Assembly: GCA_000310025.1 (NCBI GenBank)
Contig: FN649756.1
Location: 153,122 to 217,121, forward strand
Direction: 5' to 3'
Length of the DNA: 64,000 nt
Source of the DNA: Ectocarpus siliculosus
Lineage: Eukaryota; Sar; Phaeophyceae; Ectocarpales; Ectocarpaceae
Shown here: piece by piece, positions 13,227 to 63,699 of the stretch
Numbering within the stretch: position 1 is the stretch's first letter
How the letters are laid out: each line of letters begins with the position of its first letter
Program-made: the position numbers and the translations under genes
Notes under the pieces: generated by a model
The model's database searches: none
What the model was told of the DNA's origin: nothing
Seen by the model: only the letters and a program-made list of their open reading frames with translations

Positions 13227-13386
13227 CTCGCTATCGTCGTGTGTGCTGTGGTGAATGTGTGTCCTTGCTGTTCCCTACATTGGTTGCTTGACTCTTGCCT
13301 GGGTACCTTATTTGGATAGAATGATCTTGCGGACTCCCTAGGCTGGCACCAGCGACTTACACGCTGCTTCACTCCCCAGCTCCCGT
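13227..13386. promoter_or_regulatory. Bidirectional promoter between derlin and RING gene
   Basis: Only 160 bases separate the two divergent start codons, so both promoters must lie here. The interval contains an inverted CCAAT box (CATTGGTT at 13278) and a 77-base element that recurs upstream of the gene at 24698-25333. Shared control is inferred from the layout. Confidence 0.7.
13278..13354. repeat. 77-bp promoter-associated repeat, copy A
   Basis: This segment matches 25433-25509 at 75 of 77 positions with no gap (key parts CATTGGTTGCTTGACTCTTG, GATCTTGCGGACTCCCTAGG). Beyond it the two copies stay similar after a small insertion in copy B. It lies 52 bases upstream of the derlin start codon and 32 bases upstream of the RING start codon. 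Confidence 0.93.
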
Positions 13387-19078: not shown

Positions 19079-21654
19079 TCAAAAATCTGCCGGCCAATCC
19101 TTGGACGCTAACTCCTCGTTGTATAATCGAGCCACGGATCGAAAGGCTCGCATGTCGCCTGCTCTCACCATATTTCCTGCACGCGAGAGCCGTTGTGGTT
19201 GAAAGCGGTCAGTTCGGTAGAAGGGGGCGGTGTGGTCGGTGCAGACACAACGGTCCGTGAAAGCTGCAGACTAATTGTTGCGCCTATTCCGGGCTCGCAC
19301 AGTAAGCGACAAACATGCTGGGGAGCATGGACCGCACGTGAGGCCAACCCACGGTTAACAAGCAGTGGTATCCGTCACGAAAGTCAACATTATAGAAACA
19401 AACAAACGCCAAACGCTATAGGCATGCACCTATTCACACACCGTTGTTGAGGCAACATCAGCGGACAAAGTGATGGTTGGATTCGCTTGGATTTGGCATG
19501 ACATACACAAACATACGTCGGAGTTTTGGTTCACGTTTCCCATGATATCCAGTAAAACTAACAAAACCCATTCAATTGAAGCAATCAACTATTAATAGAG
19601 GTGAGATTGAGAACTCTGCTCGTCCTACACGATAGGCGACAGAAATCCGCAAAATTTTGGCCCCAGATCAGACAATGCAGGGCGTAGAGGTCTAAAAACC
19701 AGCAGCTTGGCCATTGTACATACCTGCATCACAGTTGAGGGGGCTGTCTGCCTCAGGGTGAGCAAGCAGGGCCAGGATTGCTCTGCAGGCCCCCTGAACG
19801 AGCAGGAAGCACGCAACAAAAAACACGGGATGGATCAAGCCGGCAAGGCATCAGACGGTTCGGCGTGAGCATGTGGCCATGCGACAATACGTAGCCAGCA
19901 AACCTTGCGACACCAGCTGACTGGTCGGTAGAGTCATGGTGTGGTGGTGTGTGCGATCAGTCACATGGAGCGGGCTGAAGCAAGCTTGTGGCACCGTTCG
20001 CGGGTGTAATGTTGCCGGCTAACATTGGAGGGTTTGTGCTCTAGTTATGCACACAGGTAAATCCCCGTGGCAACACCTCGGTGGCAACGAGAAACTGTCA
20101 CCAGAATGCTGAGGTTGTCAAGGAAGGTGGGTTCGTTTCGTTAATCTTGCTGCTGCTGCTGCTGCTGCTGCCGCCGCCGATGTCACCGAAGCTCAAGACT
20201 TTGCTTGAAGGCACCAAAACCGCCTTTGGTGATCCCGCAACCCAACGTATGGTTCAACGTCAGAAAAACGAACAGGTCGCTGACGGTTAGGAGCCTCACC
20301 TGCAGGCTCCACGCAGGAGACCAATCTTTCTTGAGAATGTTGAGGCAGATTTCGCCAGTCTGGGAAAGAGGGATTGAAAGGGGTATGATGTATGCACCAC
20401 CAGTACGCAAGAAACGTTGACGAGACGTGTCATGCCACGTTAACGGGCGGATATCAATCGCACCACAGCGTCAATATGACCAAGGGAGATGTCTCTACAT
20501 ACTGAGGTACGACAGAATTCGGGAAAATACGTTCTACGGCTTGTAGAAGACAGTGGTGACGGCGACAGCAACAACAATGACGCAATCTGGCTGAGCCTCT
20601 TTAGCTGCTTCCCTCGGGCATATCGACATGCAGCCTGGATTAGACTTGAGTACGGTGGCTGACATACCAACTATAGAGTCCGAAATCAAACCATTAGACT
20701 AGTCAGCTTTGAGAGTTAGTCGAGGCCGGCTGGATACTTTGAGGTGTTCTTTTTCCTGAGACCCTAGAAAACTCCCGGCCAGAGCATGGGTGACAGAAGC
20801 ACTCGTCCGAGACCCTAAAACATCCTGCAGGATGTTGGTGGCTGTGTGTGTGAGTGTTATGAAGCGAAAGAGAGATTGGACGGATAATAGCGCTGGCAAG
20901 GGGATTCACCCTCCTCGGAAGTGAAAGTGCCAGGGCACACGAACCCCACGACTAACTCTTAAGAAGCCGATATCACACCATTAGACTAGACTAGTCTGCG
21001 CTGAGTAGTCTAATGGTTTGATTTCGGCTTCTATGCAACCCTGAACATCGTACATACGCAAAACTCACGTTAAAGTGCACGTTGGGGTGGAAGACCTTCG
21101 TGACGAACCGCATACATGGAGGCACCATGGGGTACTGTTGCCCCACCGTGATTTTCAGCTCGTAGATGCCTGTCGGAATGCGGGGTGGGTGTCGTTGCTT
21201 CACGATGCTTGACCTCCGGCGCGGTACACCTGAAGAAATATCGAAACACTTTGTACATACATCAGGAGCCCTAGCACCAGGAGAACCACAGTGGTCCCCC
21301 CCTTGCCGCAGCTGCCAGCAGCAGCGGAGCTACGATCGTTGTACTACAGTAGTACTCCAGGTGGACATGACCCAGCGGCTGTTCATACACACGTACACTG
21401 CACAGCAACACAAGAAACACAACGCTTCACCGATATGTATCGTGATAAAAGGACCCGTCGCACGGCAACAAAGCCGCGACGCACTTCTGCATACAAGTAC
21501 CTCCTGCGAACGGTGTGTCTGGCGGCCCCCGAATGTACGCCCGCCACTGTCGAATGTCGTCCTCGTCGGCAGACATCCTGATGTCTTCGTCCGGTGGGGA
21601 GGTCTGCAGCTTGTGCATCTCTTTCCGTAGTCGTTTCGCGGAAGTCAGAGACAT
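19079..21654 (-). CDS. PEX4: PEX4-type ubiquitin-conjugating enzyme E2
   Basis: Five exons (21501-21654, 21069-21169, 20300-20359, 19724-19793, 19079-19176) sum to 483 bases: 160 residues plus stop, the size of plant and yeast peroxisomal E2. The fold reads in order: helix 1 (SAKRLRKEMHKLQTSPPDED), IRQWRAYIRGPPDTPFAGG, GIYELKITVGQQYPMVPP, the HPN motif (FVTKVFHPNVHFN), the active-site Cys in TGEICLNILKKDWSPAWSLQ, then DSPLNCDAGN and MRAFRSVARLY. The run HPNVHF followed by TGEICL and DSPLNCDAGN is typical of PEX4/UBC21, which mono-ubiquitinates the import receptor PEX5 at the peroxisome with PEX22 as anchor. All junctions are GT-AG and in phase. Exon 19724-19793 also exists as an identical inverted copy at 23324-23393. 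Confidence 0.95.
19258..19826 (+). repeat. Arm 1 of a 569-bp perfect inverted repeat
   Basis: This arm covers PEX4 exon 19724-19793 with parts of both flanking introns. Its reverse complement is 23291-23859, with no mismatch noticed by eye and no length difference. Splicing from this arm into the true terminal exon at 19079-19176 works, so this is the original gene location. Confidence 0.95.
20148..20172 (+). repeat. (GCT)n microsatellite in a PEX4 intron
   Basis: About eight GCT units in the intron between exons 20300-20359 and 19724-19793, not in the coding sequence. Confidence 0.9.
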
Positions 21655-23290: not shown

Positions 23291-23859
23291 GTGTTTTTTG
23301 TTGCGTGCTTCCTGCTCGTTCAGGGGGCCTGCAGAGCAATCCTGGCCCTGCTTGCTCACCCTGAGGCAGACAGCCCCCTCAACTGTGATGCAGGTATGTA
23401 CAATGGCCAAGCTGCTGGTTTTTAGACCTCTACGCCCTGCATTGTCTGATCTGGGGCCAAAATTTTGCGGATTTCTGTCGCCTATCGTGTAGGACGAGCA
23501 GAGTTCTCAATCTCACCTCTATTAATAGTTGATTGCTTCAATTGAATGGGTTTTGTTAGTTTTACTGGATATCATGGGAAACGTGAACCAAAACTCCGAC
23601 GTATGTTTGTGTATGTCATGCCAAATCCAAGCGAATCCAACCATCACTTTGTCCGCTGATGTTGCCTCAACAACGGTGTGTGAATAGGTGCATGCCTATA
23701 GCGTTTGGCGTTTGTTTGTTTCTATAATGTTGACTTTCGTGACGGATACCACTGCTTGTTAACCGTGGGTTGGCCTCACGTGCGGTCCATGCTCCCCAGC
23801 ATGTTTGTCGCTTACTGTGCGAGCCCGGAATAGGCGCAACAATTAGTCTGCAGCTTTCA
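23291..23859 (-). repeat. Arm 2 of the 569-bp inverted repeat (duplicated PEX4 exon)
   Basis: Exact reverse complement of 19258-19826. It carries a second PEX4 exon (23324-23393, plus strand) with no partner exons beside it, so it cannot make an E2. It stops exactly at the first N of the gap, so its true length is unknown. Confidence 0.95.
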
Positions 23860-23959
23860 NNNNNNNNNNNNNNNNNNNNNNNNNNNNNNNNNNNNNNNNN
23901 NNNNNNNNNNNNNNNNNNNNNNNNNNNNNNNNNNNNNNNNNNNNNNNNNNNNNNNNNNN
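23860..23959. other. Assembly gap (100 N)
   Basis: A run of 100 undetermined bases, the usual placeholder for a gap of unknown size. The sequence left of it is the inverted PEX4 copy. Confidence 0.99.
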
Positions 23960-24697: not shown

Positions 24698-25333
24698 TCA
24701 CACATATTGGGACGCTTCTATACCTGCGGGGGCGTTGTTGGCACGGAGCTGCTCAATCCTGGAGAGCCGGTCCTCCTTCTTCAAAAGGAGATGGAGCTCG
24801 CGGAGCTGCTCCTCCTTCCTGCGTAGCTGCTCCTCCTTCCTGCCTAGTTGCTTCAAGAGGGCTTCGGGGTCGGTCATTCCGAGGTACCTGGAGCCCCCAG
24901 CAATAGCAGCCTCAATACCATCAGTCTTCTTGACAACCTCTGCCGTCTCCTTCTCTACATCCTCGATCTTGCGCTCTACACCACGGATCTCATCCTGGAC
25001 CGCACGGATCTCGTCCGCCGCCGGACTGCCATCGGCAGCTTCTCGCGCATGATGATCGCCGCCCCCCTCCTCCTCGCCGCCCTCGCTCATCGCGCTCAAG
25101 CTCGTCATCCCTGGCACCGGGTAAAAAAATTGCGCCCCACAAGTGTCACACGCCCCGAACACAGGGCAGATCGGACCAGAGGGCTGCGAGAGCGAAAACG
25201 TCGCCGCCGCAGGCGTGGAAGCAGGGGGCTGCGAGCGTGACGACCTGAACGTCGCAGTCCAGCTCGGGACGAAGGCCAAGCATGCTTGTGCGATACCAAC
25301 CAGGAGAAGAACCGACACACAATTCCTTGACAT
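24698..25333 (-). CDS. Putative plastid-targeted coiled-coil protein
   Basis: A single open frame of 211 residues without introns. Residues 1-20 form a signal peptide (MSRNCVSVLLLVGIAQACLA) followed by FVPSWTATFRSSRSQ. Phe directly after the cleavage site and a basic, Ser/Thr-rich stretch make up the bipartite plastid presequence (ASAFAP type) of heterokont algae. A short Cys cluster follows (CPVFGACDTCG, residues about 56-66). Residues about 105-200 are strongly charged heptad-like helix (EIRGVERKIEDVEKETAEVV, RKEEQLRRKEEQLRELHLL), a predicted coiled coil. The family is not recognised; a structural or scaffold role in the plastid is inference. The 77-base repeat also found in the derlin/RING promoter lies 100 bases upstream of its start codon. 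Confidence 0.78.
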   Translation of the reverse strand: MSRNCVSVLLLVGIAQACLAFVPSWTATFRSSRSQPPASTPAAATFSLSQPSGPICPVFGACDTCGAQFFYPVPGMTSLSAMSEGGEEEGGGDHHAREAADGSPAADEIRAVQDEIRGVERKIEDVEKETAEVVKKTDGIEAAIAGGSRYLGMTDPEALLKQLGRKEEQLRRKEEQLRELHLLLKKEDRLSRIEQLRANNAPAGIEASQYV

Positions 25334-25432
25334 CTTGAAACCAATGCTCTCTTCGCTTCGCTTAGTAGGGGTGCGGCGGCGGCGTGTTTCTCTTTTCGAT
25401 GCCTTCCATCTTTCGCCTTCCTCTGCCTACCG

Positions 25433-25509
25433 CATTGGTTGCTTGACTCTTGCCTGGGTACCTCATTTGGATAAAATGATCTTGCGGACTCCCTAGGCTG
25501 GCACCAGCG
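25433..25509. promoter_or_regulatory. 77-bp promoter-associated repeat, copy B
   Basis: Matches 13278-13354 at 75 of 77 positions. It sits 100-176 bases upstream of the start codon at 25333. Its presence in front of unrelated genes makes a regulatory element, or a small inserted element that brings one, the likely explanation. Confidence 0.7.
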
Positions 25510-26524: not shown

Positions 26525-27342
26525 ATGGGGAGCCAAGCGACGAACAAACGTAGGCGTCAAAGGCAACTGCTGAAATTCCGGAGACCGGTGGAGATCTCGA
26601 AGAAGATGTTCGATCCTGGCCTTTGCTCGTGGAGAGACGTGTACAAGGCGATTCCGAATCGCGGGCAGGGAGACTTTTGGCCCTTGTCGGTGATATTTCT
26701 CGCCTTACACAGAGGTGGAATGGATGCCCACAGAGCGCAATGTGTGCTGTCGACACAACGTAAGGAATTGGCGGACCTTATCCTCCTTTGTCGGGAGCTC
26801 ATCGTAGAGTACCAAGCAGCTACAGGAGAGGGGGGGGCCTTCTTTGTAAGCCAAAGCGACTCGGACAAACCGGATGCGGACATCAAGAGCATGGCCAAAT
26901 CCACCGCCGACATCTGCACGTTGGAAGACTGGAAACGCGTCACCCTCTGTCCCGAAGGCTACCTGGACGACAAAGCTCTTGTGATCCTTGGCAAGCTGTT
27001 ATTGCGCGAGGTCATCCAGCTCGTCAAGGAGGATGGTATCGTGGGAGAGCGTATCGTGGACGCCAGAGAGCCGTCCGCTTTGCTGGGGGCAAACCTGGTC
27101 CTCCACCGTGGAGCCCACTTCGAGGCTCTTCTCCCGAAAGTGAGGACTGCCGTTTGCCGTTGTCGTGACGAATCGTGAATGGAAACTATACGTCACGTGA
27201 GTTCCACCAAGCATAGACAAAGTTTAAAAATTTCCAACCTCCTTCCCATTTACAGGACGAGTTGAGGGCCAATGATGACACCGGTGACGCTGGTGGCGAG
27301 ATTTGGTACGCACGACCGAACATTGGTATTCGAGGGGTATGA
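26525..27342 (+). CDS. OTU-like protease-fold protein, possibly inactive
   Basis: Two exons, 26525-27139 and 27256-27342, join in phase at a GTGAGG donor and a TTTACAG acceptor and give 233 residues. The C-terminal RGAHFEALLPK resembles the His region of OTU cysteine proteases (deubiquitinases), and YLDDKALVILGKLLLREVIQ fits the helix before it. Where active OTUs have GDGxC, this protein reads GQGDFWPLSV, with no Cys in place, so it would be catalytically dead if the alignment is right. The N-terminus is basic (NKRRRQRQLLKFRR). It is followed at once by a Cys-rich gene on the same strand and converges on a transposase and a methyltransferase; OTU-like proteins are known cargo of large eukaryotic transposons. 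The assignment is tentative. Confidence 0.5.
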
Positions 27343-28037
27343 TAAAGCAGGCTGCCCCAAACTTCGACGTTATTGATCTTGGCGTGCAACGGATGGAATG
27401 GTTGGTGGCGTACTGGCTTTCTGTGGTGCCGCTTGGTTCCGGCAACTATCCGATTAAAGTGCCCGACTGGAACGGCAAGGGGTACCTCACGAACCCGGAG
27501 TGTGATGGAGGTGCTTTGGTGCTGTTGCGCACGTTGCCAAAGGTAACTCTCTGGGCGGGTGTAGGGGTTAACATAGTGTCGTGCAGGTGTTCATCCCAGA
27601 AGGGAAAGGGCCAAAGTAAGGATTGTGTTTGCATGAAAAACGGTGGTCCAGGTCGTTGCTCAGAGTTGTGCAAATGCAAACTTGCGTGCTGCGAGGAGCA
27701 GAACACAGTAGTAGACGAGGGTGGTGCAGAGCCGACACCCGAGGAGGAATTCTGTCCAGACGATAGTGACACCGACGACGAAGAGGAGGATTCACCAATG
27801 GTAGAAAGGTTGGGGGTGCACCAGGACGATAGAGACCCAGCGTTAGAACACGACGATAATTCACCGGCTGTAGCAAGTTCAATCATGGACATGAGTTTCG
27901 GTGTGTGCGGATTCTTAGGGGACGATGAGCGAGAGTACGAGAAGCAACTCGTGAGTGAGGGGTGGGAAGGTACGCTACAGCCGGTCGATTGTAGGGACCA
28001 GGTTGTATCCGCCCCTAGTAATGAAATGTCCGTGTGA
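27339..28037 (+). CDS. Cys-rich protein with acidic tail, unknown
   Basis: An open frame of 232 residues. After about 90 ordinary residues comes a compact Cys cluster (SCRCSSQKGKGQSKDCVCMK, then CSELCKCKLACCEE) that resembles the CXC zinc-cluster repeats of tesmin-like and some transposon proteins. An Asp/Glu-rich segment (FCPDDSDTDDEEEDS) follows. Its ATG overlaps the stop of the OTU-like frame by four bases (ATGA). In a eukaryote this more likely means that a splice joining the two frames has been missed, or that this frame starts at another exon, than true coupling. The function is not known; DNA binding is inferred from the Cys cluster only. Confidence 0.55.
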   Translation: MIKQAAPNFDVIDLGVQRMEWLVAYWLSVVPLGSGNYPIKVPDWNGKGYLTNPECDGGALVLLRTLPKVTLWAGVGVNIVSCRCSSQKGKGQSKDCVCMKNGGPGRCSELCKCKLACCEEQNTVVDEGGAEPTPEEEFCPDDSDTDDEEEDSPMVERLGVHQDDRDPALEHDDNSPAVASSIMDMSFGVCGFLGDDEREYEKQLVSEGWEGTLQPVDCRDQVVSAPSNEMSV

Positions 28038-28540
28038 TGTACTTGCCAAAGTATTTTTCGAAATGAGACTCATCGTATAGCGCAGAGGCCGGGGCACAGT
28101 CTGTTGTGTACTTGCCTGGGGCATTCATAGAACGATCGTACAAACTAACAACAACGTGCAGATTGATCGTTCGTCTGGCTCCAGAGAGCCTATCCGATCA
28201 CAGGCAAAGAAAAACGAGGCCGGATTGTCTTGTATTTCTTTCACAAGGCACATGCCCACACCGCCGAGCGCGCTTCCACCCACCACCAACTAACCAAACC
28301 GTAACACGCGTCCACGTCTCATTTATCATTTATTTAGGGATTGGTTGTCGTACAATCGTGCTCAACTATTGGGGCTGCGATGATTAGTTGCGAGCTTATC
28401 CGAAAAAAATAACACCGGGATTTACTGTGGGCTGCTACAAGAGCGCGCCATACATAGGGGAATGCAAAACAACGCACCCGCGTGACATCTGTACCTTACA
28501 TCACCCTCGCAAATACCTTCCACTCGTTCCCCAACGCTTA
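28038..28540. other. Convergent spacer inside the putative transposon
   Basis: Five hundred bases between the two converging stop codons, with no coding signal and no repeat recognised. Confidence 0.5.
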
Positions 28541-30143
28541 TTATTCCGGGCAGAAGACCATTCGCGTATCACAGGTACGCGCACTACCACCATCAGCATA
28601 CCACACGCCCCAAAATTCGCCAACCATGACGTGCGCGGGTGTGTACCTAGCCCTCCTAAAAAAAACACACACAGCGGGGGGAGTCGCGTGAAGCCAGCCT
28701 CCCCGGTCGGCACATGGTTCCAAGAACGACAGTGGCAGTTTCAGTGCCACGCCTTTCGCAGCCAGCGACAAAGCCGACTTGACATATTCTAGCGCGCCCT
28801 TGTACGGGGGGCTCGTCAGGACCCAGTCAGGTCGTTGCCCAGGCTTGGCTAACAGAAAGTCGACAGCAAATGACGCCAAGCTTGCGTCCAGGTTCGTGTC
28901 CGGGGGCAACCCTCCAGGGGACAATCTGGTGTGAAAAACAATATGACAAACGGATAGTTCGGGTGAGAGGGAAGTCCCAAAAAAATTGTCATGAGGGTAC
29001 GTGGCTATCTCGGAAAGATTTAAAGGTGGGAGATCCAGGAAAAAGTCGCAAGGGACCTTCCTCTCGCCCACAAACGTACCACCTGATTATGGTGACTACA
29101 ATGTACGTGTCGTATGTGTCGATCACTTCGAGACACTAAAAATCCCTGAACGTCATCATTGCGTTTACTTTGAACCACACCACGCCTGTGCCACTGATTT
29201 TACGAGCAGATACTTCATGAAAAAAGTAGTTCGCTTGCACTCGACCAGCTCTATGTTCAACCTAGCAGAACTTTCAACACCAAACAAGGCAAAGAAATGC
29301 AAGGAGGTACCCTTTTGGCTGTAATTGACAACAACACAAAAGAAAAAAACTTAACAGTTTCGTATCCCCAATCCTGCAAATACCAAAAAGACACGGAGCT
29401 CGGGATGCTGTGACGCTACTGTTGATCGCGGTCGGAACACGCCTTGAAACGCAAAGCGATATACCAGTGATATCATGCAACAATAAAGAACAGCTTGGGA
29501 CTAGCTTGCTTTCAACAAAAATGTCGAAGGCACGCGCGACTGGTCGTTGCGATGGACCACGAGAACAAGAAAAGTGGGAGCGATCGGTTGTAGGAAACAA
29601 TAAGCTCCGAACATGCACTTATCATGTCATGCCCGCAATTTCAAAGGCACGTTCCGCTAGAATATCCAGCGCTGACTGACAGGCGGGGCGACGTTCCGTT
29701 AGATTACCCCGCCGCCGACCAAGAGAAGCAACACGCAGCAGCACTCACCTAGTGCTTATGTCGTTCGTGACGACCTTGCACGTGGCTCCAAGACGAGTTG
29801 CAATGGCATCGCCTGGCCCCCCACACATGTCGAGGACACACCCCTTGAGTTCAACAGCACCCAGCAAGGCCTCCACAGCCTCAGGCGAAGTGCAGTAGCG
29901 ATCCAGACAACGGCGTTTGATGTGCTTCCTCGGTTCAGGAATACCGGTCCACTTTGCGCCGTGCCGCGCTAGTTGCTGAGCTCGAAGCTTTGTGAGCGGC
30001 TTGTTCTTCTTCCGTAGCTGCTTGATGTACAGCTGCAGGAGGCAGTCCGGCCGGTTGCACAGGACAAGCCGGTACATGCCCGAGCCCTCAGCATTCAAGG
30101 AGGGGAATTTTCGGCCATGCCGGCCTCTTCGATAAAAGCCCAT
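28541..30143 (-). CDS. Adenine-type (Dam-like) methyltransferase
   Basis: Two exons, 29749-30143 and 28541-28925, join in phase (AG|GTGAGT donor, TTTTCACACCAG acceptor) and give 259 residues, or 237 from the second ATG at 30077. The SAM-binding motif I is [19 protein letters not shown], preceded by [14 protein letters not shown]. The catalytic motif IV is [16 protein letters not shown], an (S/N/D)PPY motif of N6-adenine and related amino-methyltransferases. Then come [11 protein letters not shown] and [12 protein letters not shown], as in phage-type Dam-like enzymes. The order motif I then PPY without a long insert fits a stand-alone enzyme. It starts 57 bases after the transposase stop on the same strand, suggesting that it belongs to the same element and could mark or protect its DNA. 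The substrate (DNA, RNA or other) is not proven. Confidence 0.82.
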
Positions 30144-30200
30144 ACTTGACGCCCGGTCCTTTCCCTGAGGCGCCGAAAGTCAGAACGATCACCTCCTCCT

Positions 30201-33200
30201 TCACCACACGCGCGTACGGACGAATCTCCTGTAGTGGCTGTTCCCAGCCAGAGCCATAGCCTCCTCTGCGTTGACGCCCCTGTTGTTGATGATGTAGGCC
30301 GCCACGCGGTGGACGTCCGGCTCATGCTTCGCTGCGATGCAGGTGCCGACCTCCCTGACAAACAGCAAGCGGCGACGTCAAAGAAAGAACGCGAGCAGGG
30401 GGGTGAAACGGGCAATCGTGACCTACGTTGGTCGCTACCATCGACGTCCGTGGATGGGTCATTGGACCCGTCGTGTGTGCCCTACTACAACACCTCAGTT
30501 AGCTTTACCAATCACCGAGACGATACGAATCGCAACATTTCCATGCAGTCGAAAATCTATCCCCTTTTCCGCTTTCGATTTACCTGGATAGTGCGGCGTG
30601 GAGAGGGTGTGCACTCAGTGTGTGGGTGGAAATAATCTGGACCTTGTGAAACAGGTCTGCGAACGGAGTCCTCTTCACGTTCGGGAAAATGTCGACACAC
30701 AAGTGAACGGTGACGTCCTTCTTCCCTTCGCAGCAGGTGTCCGCAAACACCTTCACCACATCGTTCAGTGTCCCCAGCCGGTCCAGACGTGCCCTCAGCC
30801 TGTTCGTTGGTAAAAGGATGTGAAAACAGGGGAAAAAGGAAAAATTATGGGTCTCGAATCTAAGGCCGTCGTTTTCAACTGTGTGTCACCGCCGCAAAGA
30901 ATGAGATGCCGCTCCAGGTTAGCGCAACAAGCTAGCGTCCATCTTCAAATATCTCCGATCTTTGGTGCGTCTACACACCCATCAACATCGCATCGCATGA
31001 CTCACGCATGAAGCAATGGCAACAAGTTGCTCCACTTGTCGGACCGTAGAGCGGCCCATCCAATGATGTGGCCGAACTCTCCCAGCAAGAAGACGATGCA
31101 GGAGGCGTCGCCAGTGGCTATTTTCGCCAACCTGAACGTAGCATCCACCGAAACCGCTTTCCCTGGTGAGAGGTTGCAAAGCTCTCTCTTCAGAAGTAGC
31201 TTGACCTAGCAAGGGGGAAAATAAATGCAAACGATCAACAGCAAAGGCTTAGCCCATGTTTTGGCCTAGCTCTAGATGTGGATGCACTCTCAGCTCATGT
31301 GCAAGCATACCCAACACTCGTAGTTGTTCAAAACTACAGCCCTCCTTCCAAGCGTTCCTCACCGCCTGGAACGACTTCGAGCAGTACGTCTCCATGTATG
31401 CCTGAGAGGGGCCAGATAGAAGGGTGCCGCTCCCCACCACCCCCAACTTCGGGAACACTCCTGAGCCCTTGTGCATCGCTGCGAACACGTTCCAGCACGT
31501 GTGCCTCTGTCTCTGCTTGAAGTCGTATGCCTGCAAGAATAACACATCAATAGACCATAATGCAAAGTAAAACCGAAACTCCAATCAGAGGCCATCGTTG
31601 TACGCAAACCATATGATTTTTTTTTCTGGAGTAGCATCTGGAGTTGCATCGGGAAAGCACTTTCAATATAAACCCCGATCCTAGTTTTGCCGAGTTTATA
31701 GGTCTACTCTCCGTTCTGCACTTGTAAGATATTATTTATTTGACCGCAGGTATTCAGGGCACAACAAACACCCCCTAGCGTACCTCCTTCGCTTGACGGT
31801 GCAAAGCCGCTACAGGCTGCGCTCCTGTCACAGTGAGGTCGAGAAGGGCATGATCGGCGCCACCCTTACCGAAGCACTCGAAGTCGTACTTCGCTTGGAC
31901 AGCCGCCGGAAGAAGTCTCATGTAACTTCGTGGGCGACAGAGCAGCGATACCGGGAACAATCGAAACGGTCAGGAATGTTGACGGCACGTGCGAGAATTG
32001 TAATAAACAACCAGCTGGACAAACAAAAGCCCGAAAGGGAGATGCCCCATTGCCATCAATGGCCAATTTATGCGGCACGAGAGAATCACACCTCTGGTCC
32101 GAAATCGTGAAAGACACGCCTCCCTTGAGCAGAGTCTTGACAAGACTCATACATCCTTCCCACTTGATATCACCCCTGCGTAACGCCGCCTTCACAGCGT
32201 CGGGTGCACTGTCCACGCTATCCGCTCCCTTCTTCTTGGCTTGCACCCTCGCCTCCCCACCGTCGTCTCGCCGTTTCATGGCTGCAATCGTGGCGTCCGT
32301 TACAGCTCGGCACTCCGGCCCCAAGCATCGGTGGCGGGCTGAGCAAATGAGCAAATTCTCGCCAGACATGCTGTGAACCGCTCGGATCTGATAGATGTAG
32401 AAACGCCGCGAACAGAAACACCTTAACATCAGGTGATTGGCATGCGCCCACCGCGTAAAAATAAAGCAATACACAGAAGACATGCCCACCATATTTGCAC
32501 AGCAGCAACACACAGGGAAATACCAAGACATTCTTACGACGTCTGCTATTGCACAGCAGCAACTAGCAGGGAAATGCCAACACTCGTCCTCACGTCGCTC
32601 CACGAAGCCCAACTCGTGTGGGCGTTGCTCCGGCAGGTGGGGCAAATCAACCGTGCGCCAACCACCCGGTCACCCCGAATGACTTGAAATTCTTTCGATG
32701 CCAATAGGGCTTGTCTGTCGAAAACCTGAACATTCAGCGGTAGGAAGGAGCAAAATGTAGAATCATCGCGAGTGCTGTTTACATTATACTTAGACACATA
32801 TTCCCAGATAGGCAGAGATGCGTGGTTTTGGGGGGCGCTTTCATTCATCAACGGCGAGGCTCTCATCATCGTACTTGTATACTTCATACAGCAGGAACGT
32901 TCGTTGCACACACGACACACACGTCGCTGGAACCTCTGTCCCTTGACTGTTGGAGCCGCGTACTCGTTCGAAATCCTACTAAACCCCGGGGACAACACTT
33001 GGTCGTACAAATCACCGGGTTGTACTCTATGGGGGTGTCTCTTATCTCATGTGGGTGTATTATCTTGTGTCGTACTCCCGACTACTGCCGTACTGCTGTC
33101 GAGACTAGAGAAGCCTGCACGTGCAGGCATACAAAACTATGTTCTTCCGACTACTACGACTACTGTTTCGTGCAAATCACCTCAGGCATGACGAACACGA

Positions 33201-34050
33201 CAGTTCCGGTCACCAGGTGGTGTATCCGCGCAAGTTCCTTGGACTCCGCCGTCCAGTCACCATCCCCTTTGGACCGCATAGCACGTATCCCCGAATCCTC
33301 CAGACGCATGTACGCCCCAGGCCATTTGGATTGATCCTTCCAAGCGTCTCCCCATTTCCCGGAGTCCGACAGTGACCCATCCTTCGTCAGCCTCGGCATC
33401 CCTTTCCTGAGCGGATGCACAACCTTCGCCACCGCCTCCCTAACCGCTTTATCCGTGAGCTCCGTGTGCCGCTGTGTTCGGGGCGACAACACCCGTGGAG
33501 CATCGGCACTCTCCTTCGTGGGGCAGGACTGCCCGTTGAAAAACAAGTCCGATAGCCTCTTTAGCTGAACCTCTGCCCCTCCTGGGCGAGGAAAAGTGGC
33601 GACCAAGGGAACCTGGTCAATGTCAGCACCCGCACCGCTCGTGCTGCTTGCGGAACGTGAGCCGGGTTCAGCCGCGGAAGACGCACCCGCTGCTGCCCCT
33701 GCAGTCAGCGGCCGCGCTACCCGGCCTCCGCTCGTGCTTTCCATGATTTCAGGCCAGTGCGCTGCGCAATACTGCTCGAAGTGCTTATGATCGTACGTAC
33801 GGCTTGCCCTCAATTGGCCTGCTGCATGCCACGCTCCACTGTAGCCTCTGTCACTCCCGTCTGTCCCCTCCGTGCACCCGCTGCGTTCGGCGTACGCGTA
33901 CTTGAAACAAACCTCTGCGGGCTTCAAGGCATACAAGGCGGCGTACCCTTTTCTCTGCCTCGGTTTTCGCGGTCCGAGGAGCCGTCTTCGGCCATGAGCA
34001 CCAGGAGCATTGCCATTGGTCGCGGCGAGAGGGATAGGTGGATCTGCCAT
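30201..34050 (-). CDS. Zinc-ribbon/DDE transposase
   Basis: Eight exons (33181-34050, 32594-32725, 32092-32387, 31784-31925, 31288-31530, 31006-31205, 30584-30799, 30201-30354) sum to 2253 bases, 750 residues plus stop, with consistent phases. The N-terminal 290 residues are basic and Ala/Ser-rich. Exons 2 and 3 form a Cys cluster (ARLICPTCRSNAHTSWASWS, then ENLLICSARHRCLGPEC) like the DUF6729 zinc-ribbon. Exons 6 and 7 carry the RNase H-like core: first Asp in AVSVDATFRLA, then FLLGEFGHIIGWAALRSD, second Asp in VVKVFADTCCEGKK, and DLFHKVQ downstream. This order is that of the widespread transposases with a D-CC motif in fish and invertebrates. The third catalytic acid was not placed. The weakest junction is the donor at 31288. 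Confidence 0.8.
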
Positions 34051-35004
34051 GTTCGTTACACTCCTGGCGTGCTCGGTCTGATCATAACCGTGGTCGTTTG
34101 TGTCGTATGTGTCCTGGTGCTGATCGCTGTCTTGGCCCCCATTTGAAAAAGTGCGGTGGAAAAAAGTGTTCCACGCGGCGGAACACGTGGTGGAACAGCA
34201 GGTTTTTGGTCAAACTTCACTTGGTTTTATTGTCACGCCCCCAGCTATAATTTTAGCCCAAATCCCCCGCCTATGATTGGCTGGCCCGGGAGGGTGTTCG
34301 CTGCTTTCCATAGGTTACGTTTGGGGAGTGAACGCGGACAAGAAAACGAATCTTTCAGCTTTCAGCAGGTAGGGCGCAGCATCTCCAAGCACCCATCAGC
34401 TGCCTCACATCGACCCGGTGAGCGGTGATAGCAAATACTCGTGTGAGAGACGTCTGTATCCTGAGCCAAATGAAGGAACGCATCTCGCCCGTGGTAATAA
34501 CCCCGTCACTCTCACCCCAAGTGGCCCAGTAAAAGAGAGACTACTGTATAGTGTACAGTTACACGTGTAGACTCGTCTCCGTGGGATAACAAAGCCAACC
34601 TGGACGAAGGCAGGCAATCTCTGTGGTGTGTTACTGGAGGGCTGAAGGACTGTATGTACATGTACAAGATTAGGTGCGTGGAGTACGTGCTCTCATGCTC
34701 TAGATAGAGACGGATTTGGGTATTTTTGAAAGGAAGCAGCATGGTTGCAAAGAAGCATCAACTACCCCATTTTCAGCAGGAGATCGTTGGATTTTCTGCA
34801 CGACGAGACCTTAGCGTAGCCCACTTCTTGCGTACGTTGTCCAACAAGGCTGGACGAACTGACAACAATATCGCTTCCAGTGCGTTCCAACAAGGGATTG
34901 TCAAGTTTTGGACAAACCTGTTGGGTAGCGCCAGCATTTAGCAACAAACTGCTAGATAGAGTAGGGCTGTCCAAAACTGCTTCAAAAAGCCGCCTTCTTA
35001 GTTA
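34051..35004. other. Between transposase and Harbinger-like element
   Basis: No gene recognised. An imperfect palindrome (GTGTTCCACGCGGCGGAACAC less a few mismatches, at about 34167) and one copy of a dispersed repeat (34300-34480) lie here. Confidence 0.45.
34300..34480 (+). repeat. Diverged dispersed repeat, copy 2
   Basis: Shares ordered blocks with 22170-22360 (CACCCATCAGCTGCC, CATCGACCCGG, CTCGTGTGAGAGACG, ATCCTGAGCCAAA). The element family is not known. Confidence 0.6.
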
Positions 35005-36226
35005 GGCCATTTCTTGCGGTTGTCTTTTTTTATTATCTTTTTCTGTTTTCCTTCTCAAAAAAAGACAACTGGCCGTAGAAGGTCTTCTTACAATGTCTTT
35101 TTTCCTCAAAAAAATATCGCCAGAAAAAGACAACCCGTTTTGGACAGCCCATCCTGTCTTTTTTGGGGGCAGTTTTGGACAAGTGGAGACTGTCCAAAAC
35201 TGTTGTCTTTTTTTGGTCACAACCACATCACTCGTACCTAGAAACTTGAATCTCTCGACGGCCCACCGCAAACTCTAACGGCGGTCACACGAGTTGTGTC
35301 ATGTTGCTGGGGTACAGAGTCGGTGGCACCGGCGGTAGCCAATGTTTTTTCAGTGGGCTGGACCACGTGGACAACCCGATGTGTGCGGCAAACAAGATGT
35401 AAACAAACCGAGAGAGCCTGGACGCAGCAGCGGTGGGTCATTTTTCGTGTACTGTCAACCTTGCGAACCCAACTTTCGGGCGTCCTATAGCCTCCTGGTC
35501 TGTATCAATCATCACACAAGACGAACCATACGCACAGCTCGTGGCGCATGCCTTCATCATCGCTGTTGCTTGAGTGGGTGGCGAGGGAGTACTGGCAAAC
35601 CAAAGTTAGTTGTGACACGGGCAATAGAGCGAAAAAAGTTGCTTGAAGATGCGGCGGATCATTTTTCCCGCTTGTCCACCACTCTCGCGCTCACAATTTC
35701 TGAGCGTCCTATAACCTCCTGGTCTGTATCAGCCACCACACAAGACGGACCATACACACAGCTCGTGGCGCATACCTTTGTCATCGCTGTTGCTAGCGTG
35801 GGTGGCGAGGGAGTACCGGTAAACCAAAGTTTGACAGGGGCACAAGAGCAAAACAAAATGGTTGCTGGCGCGGTGGGCATTTTTTCAGCGTGCTGTCGAC
35901 TCTCGGTACCTCCATTCCCGTGCCTCCTATCGCCTTGTGGTCTCTGTCAGCCGCCACCCAAGACGGACCATACACACAGCTCGCGAGGGATAGCTTTACA
36001 GTAGGCGCTGCTTCACTCTGTGAGGAGATATCACCGAAAAACCATTTCGGTGGGAAGGTCCATGTATGTGTGACAGCAGCCATTGCAGTGTCTGTTTTTT
36101 TTTTGGTCGTTGAAAAAGGATCGACCAACACCGTAAGAAGGGGGTCATCTTTTTCGTAGATCCCTTTCTGGGTTGTCCGAAAGGGGGAAAAAAAGATCTG
36201 CGAAAAAAGAACCGCAAGAAATGGCC
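35005..36226. mobile_element. PIF/Harbinger-like non-autonomous transposon
   Basis: The two ends are perfect 17-base inverted repeats, GGCCATTTCTTGCGGTT, at 35005-35021 and (inverted) 36210-36226. Similarity continues inward as T-rich sequence with GTCTTTTTT-like modules. Both ends are flanked by TTA (35002-35004 and 36227-36229), the 3-bp target duplication typical of PIF/Harbinger elements, whose terminal repeats also commonly begin with GG. The element is 1222 bases long and contains no transposase frame, so it would depend on an enzyme made elsewhere. Inside are extra copies of CTGTCCAAAACTG in both orientations (35173-35202) and a three-unit tandem repeat. Confidence 0.88.
35491..36060 (+). 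repeat. Three diverged tandem units of about 220 bp
   Basis: Units begin at about 35491, 35716 and 35925 with a CTGGTCTGTATC or GTGGTCTCTGTC block, followed by CAAGACGGACCATACACACA and AGCTCGTGGCGCAT or similar. On the plus strand the second and third units translate to related segments (TTQDGPYTQLVAHTFVIAVA and ATQDGPYTQLARDSF), so the array may come from a captured repeat-protein gene. No complete reading frame remains. Confidence 0.7.
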
Positions 36227-37740
36227 TTACGTCATCTCTCTGGCTGTCACACGTGGTGCTTTTTCTGTACGGGCGGAAGAACTCCGAACAATTTATACTT
36301 GTTCCTACAATTCATATTTGGTTTATTGCGGTATTGTAGAGCCAGGTGGATACCCGTCCTCCCACCAATCACACGTCGATTGTATGTAAAGCATTTTGTA
36401 AGACAGAAGCAGCTGATTGTGCGATTGCCACGCCGCTCGGGGAGAATCCCCGAAAGCCTGTTGAAAGATTTGTCACAGGAGCAACGCACGTAGACAACAA
36501 ACTATACAACCAGCACAGCAGCACACGAGACTGCTGTAGGCCAAAGGGCAGCCAAAAGCACACATCATAGGGGCGTCGCGTGCGACTCTTAGAGCCGGTT
36601 GCCTGCTGTCGGCAGCACAAGCGAGGGAGGCGAGTGCACAAAAGCCAATCTGCGGCCTGTCTTGCATCTGCAGGGCGATATTTTGAGCTTCCCACACAGA
36701 CGCACCCCCGAAACAGAGACAATGAGACACACGCATTGCTATAGACCCAGGGCGGCTTTAGGCTAACATCGTAGGAGACGTCGGGAGGAATTGTTAGAGC
36801 CCGCTCCGTGATGCTGCTAGCAGCGTGAGCGAGGGAAGCAAGTGCACACCCATGCGCGGTGTCTCCGACTTTTCCCCATAGCAGCAAGCAGCTGATCAGA
36901 GTTTCGTCCACACCAAGCAACGCTCTCACTCATCCCGGCGCTGTATGACCAACAATGTGGCCACATCACGGTGTCTTAGATACACTTCAATAGGCATGAA
37001 ACCACGGGCGATGTGTTCCCACGCCCTCCAGCTGTCGCGCAAGTTGTCGTTCGGCGCAAACTAACAGGTGGTCATACAAACACCGCTGTCGAAATAGTTT
37101 TCTTTACCGTTCACCATATTTTGCAGCACAGAATAATATGGCCTCTTCAAGGTGCGACCGCTTCGCAAACGGTCCATGCTTGGCTTGGTGCCACCACGCT
37201 GTGCCAGGACTTTGATTCCCGCGCGAAAATCCAGACCACACTACCTACTGCTGCATACATGTGTTTTTGGAGTCTCTGCGAACAGCGCAGCAACGCCCCT
37301 GTCCGACATCTCTCTTCTGAGAAAATAAGTTTTTTAGTGACCGGGCGGGACAGGCAAATAGTGGGGGGCTCCAGAGCAACTTGCGGCCAATGTTTGCGTT
37401 CGGGTAGTCTCTGCCGATAATATGCAATCCGGCTGTCAAAAGGTTTCGAAGAGCAACAGTTAAGGGGGGGCAGAAGACAAATTTTGATGTTTACTAATAT
37501 TGAAAACAAACGCGAGAGCACCAGAAACTGCACAACAAGTACACCAGACCAGTAGGAAGGCACCGCGAAAAACGGCAATCGTTGATTCTCGCACAGGGCG
37601 GCAGTAGAGGCTACTCAAAACATACATTCCATGCGTCTACGTCCACATGTCTCCTTTGAAATCAAGATCAAAACTCACACCATTCTAAATTCTAGTAACC
37701 CTAACCCAAAACGGAAGGCGCTCAAACAAGGTCAATTTTG
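36227..37740. other. No gene recognised; diverged two-unit repeat
   Basis: Between about 36550 and 36920 two related segments follow each other on the minus strand; both contain CALASLA-H/C-AA when translated in their own frames. An open minus frame of 186 residues (36369-36929) crosses them, but its composition gives no support for a real protein. The rest, to 37740, shows only short chance frames and CCCTAACCC at about 37700. Confidence 0.4.
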
Positions 37741-38188
37741 AGGGTTAGGTTAGGCGTTCTTTTGTCATCAGTAGAAGACATCATGAAGAGGCGTCGTGCG
37801 TGCTGGCACGTTCAGGCTTGCTACTGGAGCTGAAATATCTAAGGTCGCAACAGCCTCTGAAAACAGTCCGAAATCTGCGCCGGAACCAAGCGGCATCCAA
37901 CTTTTATCACAGCCGTGCTCGCCGCCACTGACCCCAATCTCCTGAACTACGGATACCACTAGCTACTGCTGACGACCTTCATTCAGGGGTTTACGGTCCG
38001 TGGCGGTGAGCACCGCTGTGACAAAGGTTAGATGCCGCTTGGTTCCGGCGCAGATTTCGGACTGTTTTCAGAGGCTGTTGCGACCCTAGATATTACCGCT
38101 CCAGTAGCAAACCTGAACGTGCCAGCACGCACGACGCCTCTTCATGATGTCCTCTACTGATGATAATAGAATGCGACACCTAACCCTG
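37741..38188. repeat. Fold-back element with arms of about 200 bp
   Basis: The left arm (about 37741-37947) and right arm (about 37981-38188) are inverted copies with well over 90 percent identity in their central 150 bases (for example GAAAACAGTCCGAAATCTGC and TGAAGAGGCGTCGTGCGTGC in both) and a loop of some 35-80 bases. Both outer ends begin GGGTTAGG and share TCATCAGTAGA. No target duplication was recognised. It is either a fold-back MITE or a source of long hairpin RNA. Confidence 0.88.
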
Positions 38189-47082: not shown

Positions 47083-47724
47083 CATCGAAATCAACCTCAA
47101 GACCGGCACCCTTCCTTCACTAGGTTAAACTCACCGTCGTAGTACAACCGAGGAAGGGAGAAGCGAGCGTTCGGCTGCCTCTTGAGCATTTTATGTTTTT
47201 CAACACACATATGCTGGGGGGGTGTTGTGGTAGCTTGACGCTCGGGAATTCGATTATTCAATTCGCTGTCAACCCAATGGAGGAGGGCCAGGGTATACCC
47301 GAAGGTGACCTGAATCAGTTGTGGAACCCCCTTTTATTCTGCACCACAACACGTGATTACTTGTCACAGCCCAAAGTGAACGAAGTCAAACGAAGTCTAA
47401 ACGCTGAGAGCAACCCCTTGTGAGCAACTAAAACGGTAACAGTCCATGCAAGTTTTGTGCTTGACAGAATCCCTGTCGTAGAATTACTTCTTAGATCGGT
47501 GGTTCTAAATAAATGATCATGTGATTGCGTTCGAATAGGTTCTTGGCCCCTTTTAGATGAACTTACCCCATAAATCAGCCAGTTGGTACCCAAGCTATCC
47601 CCAAGGCGACTGCAGTATAAATGCGAGACCGCGTAGCTGAAATCCCATCGTGACACTTAGCCTATATCGTACCACTAAAATAGAACCTGTGCTCCCGGGT
47701 CCACACCCGACAGGCAGTGAGAAC
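47083..47724. other. 5' flank of the hypothetical gene at 47.7 kb
   Basis: No coding exon could be supported. The gene that follows may have a 5' exon here, because a splice acceptor (CCCGACAG) sits at about 47713. Confidence 0.4.
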
Positions 47725-50460
47725 ATGGAAAGTTTTACCGAGACCAAGGCGCTCGGTGAAGAAATGGCAGACGACCTCTGGGGCACCAGCCAACGGGATT
47801 TCAGAGCTGTCACGGGTGGGACCGAAGCATCAAATGAATCGGATTTCACTCCTGAGCAGCTGGCGGTGATGAGGAAGAGATTTTCCGTTGGAGGGATGCC
47901 TCTCCCAGATGGCGTCGAGGACGTGGAATGGCAACCGCCAGTGTCGACAGGACTCCAACATTCCAGCGCCATATTCAATACAACATCGGACCAGGAAGGG
48001 GTGCTACGACTCTCCAGCGCAGAATTGAACGTGGACAATTGCCATTTTCGGAGTTGGCAAGAGGACAACGGTGTCGCCAAGACGTTCGCCTCCGACACGG
48101 TTGTGAAAGATGTCGATGGCGTGAAACGGAGCGTGGCCATTGATCGTGGGTTTCCTCATCTAGCAGGGCGCGCAAAGACGATGATGCCGGCCGATCTGCG
48201 TTCTTCCCACGCAAGAGCGGAATCAGAAGCCATCAGGCCGGTTGTCCGTCCCGGTACGAGGATTGTGTCGCCTTCTATGGGAATGCCCTTTCGAAGGGCG
48301 AAACCTGGACCGGTATCTGCGACGGAAGGAAGCAGTCACGACAGGTTGCAATTCACCGAGGAGGACGAAAGTGGATCCGACGAAAGCGAATCACCTGTGG
48401 AACCAAGTCCTTCGAAAGACGCGGTCAAGGGCGTAGGGGAGGGAAAGGAATTGAGTGAAAACGGGAGGGATTCTGCGGTCGGGGAGACTGGCGCTGAGCC
48501 TTCCGACGGGTCCAGCAAGCAAACCTCCTTGATGGCGCGACGCCCTTCGTGTACTTCATCGAATGTTGCAGGTGACGCACCAGAGAGAACGGACGATACG
48601 AAAGATTCACCGCAACGAGACGATGGTCCGACAGACAGGGTCACTACTGGGCCGTCGCTGCCTTCTAGTACGGATAGGTCGAAGCAACCCTGTTCGCAAA
48701 CACCACGGCGCCCTTCAAGCGGTCCCGCCAGCTTTCACGCGCGTCATCAACCACAGAATAGGCGGTCACTTCGCCACAAGGTGCCACACAACCCAAGTCT
48801 TTGTTGTTGTTGTTGTTGTCTTCACATTGAAAACCGTTCCAATCTCCCTGCCCGATGCCTCCATCTGTCCGTACCGATCTACCATTTGACGCTTTCGATT
48901 CCCATCGTCATAGGCCAACTTACCCTAAAATGGGTATACCCAATAAAATGAGGGTCCGCAACACTATCTGCAAGTTGCATATTTCTATTTGTTTGGTTGA
49001 CATCACAAAGTGGGTGGTTACTTCACCGAGAGGTACCATACTCCCACCTACACATTAGCATTTGGTTGGGTGACACGGAGCTGATTCCACAACAGGGCGT
49101 CATTTTGCTTCAGCACGAAGTGCAAACCGATGCTATTTCGTAAACGTGGTTCCGGCTGCTGCTAAGTTGGCATGAACATCATGGCTGGGGACAGGGTGAA
49201 CGGAACCACCTGCGTTCTGTGATTTACGATCGCCGGGATGTTGTACTGGTTCGTAAGACTCGCTGCTCTTAGAGTCACCTGTCTCAGTGATCCTGCACAC
49301 TTTTTTACGAATGCCGTTGGTACGGAAATCCGCAACGTACCCAGGATGCCATCGGCGATGTGCCGGCTTTGGCACAGAAAGGAGGAGGAGCCGAGGAAGT
49401 ACGTCAACCTTCTCCTGTGCGCCGGTCGAGCGGGGAATGCAAAACGGCAGTGGTTGTTCACGAGGGTGGTGCTGTCGAGGGCGCCCCGGGTGTCGCACCC
49501 AGGCTAGAGAAGGACGCTGCTATCACCAACGCTCAGGATGGACATGACGTTGTGGTTGGGACAGCGGGGACGGGTGATGGCCAAGACGGGCGGGGAGGCC
49601 TACAGGAGAAATGTGAACAACAACAATACAGGGTCCCCGAACTGTCGAGCTTTACTCCGAGTACAAAGGTGGGGGGGGTAAAATGACAGATTGCAACATG
49701 TTGACATGCCTGTTGGCTGGGTTGGAGGAGAACCCGAGGTGGTTGTAAATGCCGGTTTCTTGATACCACAACCTTCAGTTAAATGGAGCACGTATGGGAA
49801 CTTCCTCATGTTTCGTTCAGTACACTTGTATTCCTGGAAAATTTCGTTGATACTTGGGGTTTTGGAAGGGCCCAAACACACACGGCGGTGGACAGACGCG
49901 ACAGACCGAAACAAATTTGTTGGCGTCGCAATCAAGCTGGAGGTCGATTATACATGTCCTGTATGACTGGCACAAGAACCTTCCTCATGGTGGAACAAGC
50001 TGTTGATGCCAAGGGGCGCACAGTTCTACATATATCAGTGATGCAGTGCTACCCTGCACACAGCAGTATTGCATGGGCGACAGGCGTGCGCTTCGTCAGA
50101 AAAAAACTGGCTCGCTGAATTGGCTCGCTTTACAAGAATGTTGCATTCTTTCAACGTCTTTGCCCCTGTGCGTCGATGCATGGACCGATAACCTGCCCCA
50201 CACAGATGGGGAAAGCAACAAAGAAATCGTGGTGGGGTGGACCACGAACTCCCAATAGAAAGATTCGACACCCGTGTAAGTCACCGCCAAGGGAACCGGT
50301 TCCAGAACAAGCCAAAGAACAGCCCCGAGAACAGCCCGAAGAACCAGTCCATGAGAGCGAGCTCCCGGCGGCAGTCTCTCATGCCACTTCAAGCCGTGCA
50401 GCTCCCGAACGCAGGTCTTGGCTCAGCTTTAAGTGGAATCGGAGGAATGTTTCGGCGTAA
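47725..50460 (+). CDS. Unrecognised multi-exon gene, intact copy of a duplicated pair
   Basis: Exons 47725-48780, 49345-49668 and 50259-50460 are supported by long open frames and by a second, diverged copy at 55866-57939 that keeps the same splice positions. Exon 1 (352 codons) begins MESFTETKALGEEMADDLWG and becomes acidic and Ser-rich (EEDESGSDESESPVEPSPSK). Exon 2 reads GDVPALAQKGGGAEEV and contains VVVHEGGAVEG. The last exon is Pro/Glu/Gln-rich and ends ESELPAAVSHATSS to KWNRRNVSA. The junction of exons 1 and 2 is in phase; the last exon needs a one-base phase entry, so one small exon between 49.67 and 50.26 kb is missing from the model. No known domain was seen. Most of the protein appears disordered. 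Confidence 0.65.
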
Positions 50461-63100: not shown

Positions 63101-63296
63101 CAATGCATAAAAGCACGTTCAAACAAGGCAGGAGGCCGAGGTAATGCTCACGTCTTGGCAGCCTTCCGCGGAAAGTCTGTCACGGCCGTTGGTACCACCG
63201 CCATCCCATCCTCCCCAACCTCGCACACAGTGCAACCGCAAGCGCCCAGCTCGCCGTTCTCTCGTGAGACAACGGATGAGGGGGAAGGCCTGGCCG

Positions 63297-63343
<47 letters not shown>

Positions 63344-63507
63344 TTGCCTGCCGCAAAAGCGGTGCCCCTCGTAGAAGATGCCGCGTGTTTGGGTCCTTTG
63401 GATCCTGCGGAGGTAAGCTTCTTGGCGAAGCATGACGTTCTTACGGGGCAGGCAGAGCAGGAGGGATTCTTGACCGTGCAGACGGTTGCGCCTAGCTCCA
63501 TCAAAGC
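60200..63507 (-). CDS. MUTYH: MutY/MUTYH adenine DNA glycosylase, C-terminal part
   Basis: Six exons (63152-63507, 62766-62856, 62045-62237, 61456-61514, 60760-60828, 60200-60406) join in phase and give the C-terminal half. The first visible exon starts ALMELGATVCTVKNPSCSAC and holds the iron-sulfur cluster (C-x6-C-x2-C-x5-C). A Ser run and linker follow, then VTDFPRKAAKT. The NUDIX-like OGG-recognition domain covers the other exons: LSVSVVERDGPAGPQVLLVK, GLLAGQWECP, THVFSHLRHTMQ, and TTGMKKVLAL before a Lys-rich tail that may be a nuclear signal. The enzyme removes adenine paired with 8-oxoguanine. The helix-hairpin-helix catalytic half must lie to the right of the window. GLLAGQWECP has Cys where most family members have Phe (WEFP). 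Confidence 0.94.
63299..63347. repeat. CTG/CAG microsatellite coding polyserine in MUTYH
   Basis: About fourteen GCT units, read on the minus strand as AGC (Ser), in the linker between the iron-sulfur cluster and the NUDIX-like domain. On the opposite strand they give a false poly-Leu frame. Confidence 0.92.
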
Positions 63508-63699
63508 CTGGCAGCATAAGGTACCACAACAATGGCATGCCAACAACGAATGAGATGAGAACAAAACGAAGGGTGTTCACTGCAGTGCGTTCGTCAGCAA
63601 TAATGAGAAATCTTCCCGGAGAGTAACAGGAACACCACTCTGATCCTACTGCGCATCCAAAGGGCTTCAATTACAACGAGGGGGCATGCCCCAGCGCGC

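Follow-up and report, generated by a model that had tools for sequence, protein, structure and literature searches.

A phage-type DNA methyltransferase gene beside a transposase-like gene

Can a DNA transposon of an alga carry a DNA methyltransferase of phage or plasmid type? The question is raised by a compact block at positions 26525-34050 of a 64-kilobase (kb) stretch of Ectocarpus siliculosus contig FN649756.1, here called the window, which is the whole DNA analysed. An earlier note, made from the sequence alone, described four genes in this block (a DDE transposase, a Dam-like, adenine-type methyltransferase, an OTU-like protein and a Cys-rich protein) and proposed a transposon that carries its own methyltransferase. 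One of the four is securely identified, on sequence grounds, as a phage-type DNA methyltransferase gene that is eukaryotic and horizontally derived. Its link to a transposon is plausible but unproven, and our tentative reading is that the block belongs to a DNA transposon, or to the decayed remains of one, which captured the methyltransferase as an accessory gene beside a transposase-like gene.

The spliced methyltransferase matched the PHROGs family phrog_799, annotated as 'DNA methyltransferase', over residues 74-227 (E value 9.8e-17), as did 22 of 22 aligned relatives. Searches with tblastn gave matches at an E value of 0.01 or better in 27 of 50,697 phage records and 18 of 72,556 plasmid records, with 27-36% identity among the matches listed (20 of the 27 in phages and all 18 in plasmids). 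None of them spans 80% of the protein, and most of the N-terminal 75 residues were left unaligned. Eleven phage and plasmid proteins align through the catalytic domain, where identity to phage, plasmid and viral-contig proteins is 26-33% in the alignments, and the closer relatives have GVA...SFLEP, R..WL and PP in common with the window protein. The family match, the tblastn matches and the alignments all support the DNA methyltransferase label. The intron interrupts the region that encodes the fold, and the alignment of the spliced product continues over the junction, which speaks for a eukaryotic gene and against contamination.

Relatives are numerous in viral and genome contigs. A scan of viral_contigs with the single protein found none, and the scan with an alignment recovered at least 305 relatives among 600 candidates; in genome_contigs at least 173 of 593 candidates were relatives. 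The best 80 loci of each scan were carried forward. A tree of 95 rows, from which rows with identical core stretches had been removed, placed the window protein next to a clade whose 30 rows come from plasmids, cyanobacteria, other bacteria and viral_contigs. The support of this grouping (97/70) is under the firm-branch mark of the tree program, and no firmly supported set contains the window protein, so that its exact position is unsure; its end branch measures 1.69 changes per column.

One relative (L012), folded from an alignment of 18, gave a model with a predicted local distance difference test score (pLDDT) of 87.6. A putative methyltransferase headed its PDB matches and M.TaqI was second (E value 4.6e-7), both at template modelling scores near 0.58 (M.TaqI 0.58 by query), with RNA methyltransferases of the same superfold (TrmM, KsgA and METTL5) further down. 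The viral list was headed by an uncharacterised protein and a putative DNA methyltransferase, both from phages. Weak profile matches were to a type I modification subunit and adenine-specific enzymes, and weak Pfam matches among the 22 relatives were to EcoRI_methylase (three), N6_Mtase (two) and Dam (one). Because of these fold and weak adenine-enzyme matches, the relatives most likely form an M.TaqI-like amino-methyltransferase family acting on N6 of adenine, an assignment that draws on the model of a relative. The window copy, with its SPPY catalytic motif, may make N6-methyladenine, N4-methylcytosine or no mark. The term Dam-like holds only in the broad amino-methyltransferase sense, and adenine specificity of the SPPY copy was not confirmed.

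The transposase-like protein

The predicted 740-amino-acid product of the neighbouring gene contains a two-Asp core, D572-66-D638, with the motifs VSVDATF and FADTCC around the two residues, and a four-Cys pattern formed by CPTC (C318, C321) and CLGPEC (C355, C360). The order of strands and helices around the core, judged by eye, is as expected of an RNase H fold, and a DxxP motif (DIFP) occupies residues 654-657. 'Transposase' is the likeliest name for this protein, unproven and derived from its sequence features. Of the DDE transposase with a D-CC core described previously, the D572-66-D638 pair with DTCC and the four-Cys pattern are present, and a significant library match is lacking.

The DUF6729-like zinc ribbon assigned to this protein was not borne out. 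No Pfam family was found for the whole protein (E value 5) or for the zinc region (E value 10), in a profile set whose inclusion of the DUF6729 model was unchecked. The motif LDIWHFMRR of DUF6729-bearing animal proteins had 0 matches in viral_contigs, and DUF6729 was not mentioned in the literature searched, a scope that excluded most subscription papers. The single PHROGs row for the protein was at chance level (E value 0.25).

Gene models of the block

The exons of the block are listed in Table 1. The eight-exon model at 34050-30201 and the two-exon methyltransferase model at 30143-28541, the latter with a product of 259 amino acids, both splice in frame. The methyltransferase gene shares the strand of the transposase-like gene and starts 57 bases downstream of its end, as the earlier note reported, and the two plus-strand frames, open at the place described, converge on this minus-strand pair. 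All nine model introns are GT-AG and in frame, with lengths of 112-455 nucleotides (nt) in the transposase-like gene, 823 nt in the methyltransferase gene and 116 nt in the OTU-like frame.

Table 1. Exons and open frames modelled in the block (positions in the window)
Feature	Position	Strand	Basis
Transposase-like gene, exon 1, ATG at 34050	33181..34050	-	open frame, GT donor
Transposase-like gene, exon 2, first Cys pair (CPTC)	32594..32725	-	splice model
Transposase-like gene, exon 3, second Cys pair (CLGPEC)	32092..32387	-	splice model
Transposase-like gene, exon 4	31784..31925	-	splice model
Transposase-like gene, exon 5, donor uncertain	31318..31530	-	splice model
Transposase-like gene, exon 6, first Asp D572 in VSVDATF	31006..31205	-	splice model
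Transposase-like gene, exon 7, second Asp D638 in FADTCC	30584..30799	-	splice model
Transposase-like gene, exon 8 and stop	30201..30354	-	splice model
DNA methyltransferase, exon 1, motif I region LDMCGGPGD	29749..30143	-	splice model, phrog_799, alignments
DNA methyltransferase, exon 2, catalytic SPPY, stop	28541..28925	-	splice model, phrog_799, alignments
So-called OTU-like frame, exon 1	26525..27139	+	open frame
So-called OTU-like frame, exon 2 and stop	27256..27342	+	splice model
Cys-rich frame, CRC...CVC...CKCKLACC, 232 amino acids	27339..28037	+	open frame

The G+C content is lowest at the second codon position in all four gene models, as is usual in coding DNA. In the 12.5 kb around the block, eight frames of at least 200 amino acids were observed against a simulated mean of 0.55, and none of 300 first-order Markov simulations gave a frame as long as 349 amino acids; this count took in the two strands together, along with neighbouring frames beyond the block. 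In-frame GT-AG fusions can be drawn on paper for the plus-strand pair (16) and for the minus-strand pair (28), so that the four frames may correspond to fewer than four genes. The OTU-like frame is better modelled as two exons, with a product of 233 amino acids whose TGA overlaps the ATG of the Cys-rich frame (27339-27342).

Neither plus-strand product had a family match in the profile libraries. The PDB rows for the OTU-like product were to other proteins, at E values of 0.6 or worse, and the AlphaFold2 model of its first exon was unusable (pLDDT 39). No relatives in viral_contigs were found for the OTU-like protein, the first 122 amino acids of the Cys-rich protein or the C-terminal 258 amino acids of the transposase-like protein, by a weak method, since the same scan had missed the relatives of the methyltransferase. 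The label of OTU cysteine protease was not confirmed: there was no OTU profile match, no relevant PDB row and no visible catalytic Cys. OTU domains are known in DNA transposons of the Ginger1 type, according to the part of the source available (PMC2836005), so the idea is not odd, yet it is unsupported for this frame. The 'ubiquitin-fold regulator' proposed for it likewise found no support.

Nature of the block

We tentatively favour a scenario in which a DNA transposon in the algal nuclear genome, or what decay has left of it, includes the block. The transposon would have picked up an M.TaqI-like DNA amino-methyltransferase of phage or plasmid type as an accessory gene; the neighbour, by its two-Asp core and four-Cys pattern, would be the transposase, and the two genes would travel together. 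The enzyme might methylate the element's own DNA, and such self-methylation could adjust how the transposase binds, shield an intermediate after excision or label the copies. In this view the two plus-strand frames would form a second, convergent transcription unit of the same element.

Several results weigh against this scenario. The transposase-like protein had no significant match in Pfam, NCBIfam or PHROGs, and its C-terminal part none in the PDB. Its model ends 102 residues past D638 without an assignable third acid, and the gene is perhaps truncated. Compared with Dada transposases, as described in the available part of PMC3706591, it has DxxP (DIFP) in place of DxxH, and the third acid E and the C-terminal CCHC finger are absent from the model. 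The methyltransferase had no significant match in Pfam, NCBIfam or a single-sequence PDB search, and its catalytic motif is SPPY where the relatives have NPP[FY]. A first scan for element ends returned five short inverted matches, none with a target duplication, and a second gave two candidate pairs against 0-5 in 12 simulations. A wide scan gave 15 pairs against 0-2 in five simulations, 11 of them AAC-type simple repeats and the other four 15-16-nt matches with no target duplication. Within the window, no stretch of at least 60 nt of the block recurred. These boundary results may leave room for an element with short inverted repeats or none. For the earlier proposal of a transposon with its own methyltransferase, the same-strand adjacency and the published algal precedents (PMC12477816, PMC3627910) speak in favour, and element ends with inverted repeats and a target duplication above chance were not found.

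The lack of boundaries above chance around the four frames, and of a repeat of the block in the window, would also suit a chance neighbourhood, in which an acquired phage-type methyltransferase, now a host gene, lies beside an unrelated transposon relic and the plus-strand frames are unrelated genes. The remoteness of the methyltransferase from all relatives found, seen in its end branch of 1.69, fits an old acquisition, and other repeat elements lie nearby (35005-36226 and 37741-38187). However, the two minus-strand genes are 57 bases apart on one strand and both open in the models, and the block is compact; we regard a chance neighbourhood as rather doubtful. Loss of function is the concern raised by the methyltransferase sequence itself. 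For a count of conserved columns, the 80 loci of each scan and the 11 phage and plasmid loci (171, all 171 matched by tblastn) were reduced to 110 by removing those whose extended frame contained stops or whose match was short, and the window protein deviates at 6 of the 31 columns conserved in at least 75% of these relatives. The E and P of motif I are replaced by D and M, and the Arg of LLRLSFLEP, found in nine of ten relatives, is Pro. The Asn of NPP, Ser in the window copy, was present in 110 of 110 kept relatives, a figure inflated by the NPP-containing pattern that selected the viral and some of the genome rows, and in 11 of 11 phage and plasmid rows selected without it. This substitution lowers our confidence that the window copy acts like its relatives; the phrog_799 match stands. 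Together with DxxP for DxxH in the transposase-like protein, these changes could mean a degenerate remnant, with an inactive methyltransferase and a truncated transposase, non-functional today. Against this, all the frames are unbroken in the models used and SPPY is a working variant among amino-methyltransferases, and we consider such a remnant improbable.

A single fusion protein of about 930-1000 amino acids could arise if a short intron removed the stop at 30201, the methyltransferase then replacing the C-terminus of the transposase. The 28 in-frame GT-AG joins (for example donor 30209 with the acceptor listed at 30033) would allow this, the expected C-terminal part is missing from the transposase-like frame, and some Dada transposases have an exonuclease domain inside them (PMC3706591, available part). 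Such joins are nevertheless easily found in open DNA; eight of the 28 imply introns below 100 nt, shorter than any model intron (112-823 nt), and a separate ATG and stop fit equally well. We consider a fusion quite improbable. A bolder version seems very improbable: the transposase, with its C-terminus exchanged for a phage-type amino-methyltransferase or co-expressed with one, would let the element write its own N6-methyladenine (6mA) or N4-methylcytosine (4mC) mark and read it through the transposase, in a host lineage that lost its own DNA methyltransferases and whose genome is otherwise unmethylated.

The favoured scenario of a transposon with a captured methyltransferase would matter for what is known of DNA methylation in these algae. 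Brown algae are reported to have no DNA methyltransferases beyond the DNMT2 type (PMC13076208), and about 1.4% methylated cytosines are reported for Saccharina (PMC6916402), both according to the parts of these papers available. Given the DNMT2-only report, a methyltransferase gene that has an intron and is linked to a transposase-like gene would stand out in a brown-algal host. If true, it would offer a sharp test of whether mobile elements return DNA methylation to such genomes.

Other features of the window

The G+C content of the window ranges from 47 to 59% in 2-kb steps. It contains no tRNA genes and no Rfam families at gathering score. A minus-strand frame at 24698-25426 encodes a product whose N-terminus reads by eye as a signal peptide followed by AFVP; with the intron-bearing genes, and on general knowledge, this suggests nuclear DNA of a stramenopile alga. 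Just upstream of this plastid-targeted-looking gene lies one copy (25433-25509) of a 77-nt repeat, 97% identical to another copy 12 kb away (13278-13354).

On the other side of the block, a small inverted-repeat element was found at 35002-36229, with exact 15-nt termini GGCCATTTCTTGCGG at 35005-35019 and 36212-36226. TTA is present on both flanks of 35005-36226, as in Harbinger-type insertions, and the element includes three direct 148-nt units, two of them 86% and 63% identical to the first. A long hairpin with 206-nt arms, 90% complementary, occupies 37741-38187. Its two strands scored 173 and 161 bits against the Rfam family MIR8622 (RF04141), under the cut-off of 197. It resembles a foldback element that elsewhere received a microRNA-precursor annotation. 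We take MIR8622 to be an Ectocarpus family, which the literature searched did not confirm.

A 569-nt perfect inverted repeat has its arms at 19258-19826 and 23291-23859, the second abutting a gap of 100 N (23860-23959), and is possibly an assembly artefact. At 1560-1675, AGGGTTAGGGTAAGATAAGTC is repeated in a tandem array with telomere-like TTAGGG units within. The plus-strand frames 47641-48951 and 56080-56823, judged by eye, seem to be related to each other, with no Pfam match. The minus-strand frame 63148-63576 has an endonuclease III iron-sulphur motif (Pfam EndIII_4Fe-2S, E value 0.017, under the cut-off) alongside a TrbL_3 row (E value 0.0093), and is perhaps a MutY-like host gene.

Comparison with known systems

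The phrog_799 enzymes of Staphylococcus phage SEP9, Rhizobium phage RHph_Y25 and Nostoc plasmids have the same motif order as the window copy over the catalytic domain, and the closer ones share DW..T.PP, GVA....SFLEP, R..WL and VW with it. The window copy differs in being eukaryotic, with one intron and about 75 extra N-terminal residues, in having SPPY for NPP[FY], and in a shortened region after SFLEP.

Several mobile elements that invite comparison are described in sources of which parts were available. Dada transposases (PMC3706591) have, in Dada-U6_DR, D567 and D635 with an N-terminal CCCC finger (C389, C394, C429, C432), followed by DxxH, E811 and a C-terminal CCHC finger; the elements lack terminal inverted repeats and insert into small RNA genes with a 6-7 bp duplication. 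The window protein comes close to them in its Asp spacing (66 versus 68) and roughly in its N-terminal four-Cys pattern, with the pair order of the four Cys different; its gene also has introns, and no terminal inverted repeats were found. The Dada assignment was not adopted, given the motif differences above and the failure to find a small RNA gene nearby: with no tRNA gene and no Rfam family at gathering score in the window, no Dada-type target was found, and the small-RNA rows near the block were at chance level (for example, a Giardia U4 row at E value 3.6).

DIRS retrotransposons carry Dam-like methylases, and other retrotransposons cytosine methyltransferases (PMC5890265). An adenine-type methylase in a mobile element is the point in common with the block, DIRS being a retrotransposon and set beside it by description only. 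Fungal DNA transposons carry TET/JBP genes (PMC12730594). The mariner elements of the algal viruses PGv and OLpv combine a transposase and a methyltransferase (PMC3627910), as the block does; they differ in having a Methyltransf_26 or C5-cytosine domain and an endonuclease, and in residing in virus genomes.

One parallel is Sola1-1_Ec32 of Ectocarpus, a DNA transposon with a prokaryotic-type 4mC/6mA methyltransferase gene (PMC12477816). An algal DNA transposon with such an enzyme is the common ground, the transposon link being only plausible here; the window enzyme has 259 amino acids, its gene shares a strand with the transposase-like gene, and the block has no recognised termini. The Pfam rows for the four proteins included no ParB family, the accessory type of Sola1-1. 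As far as the available text of these reports goes, a transposon with a DNA methyltransferase is already a known kind (PMC12477816, PMC3627910), and the novelty attributed to it earlier is weakened by these algal cases. A small stand-alone phrog_799-type enzyme directly 3' of a transposase-like gene was not met in the portions of the literature covered, and, if the favoured scenario is true, it would add a second enzyme type beside the published Sola1-1 case.
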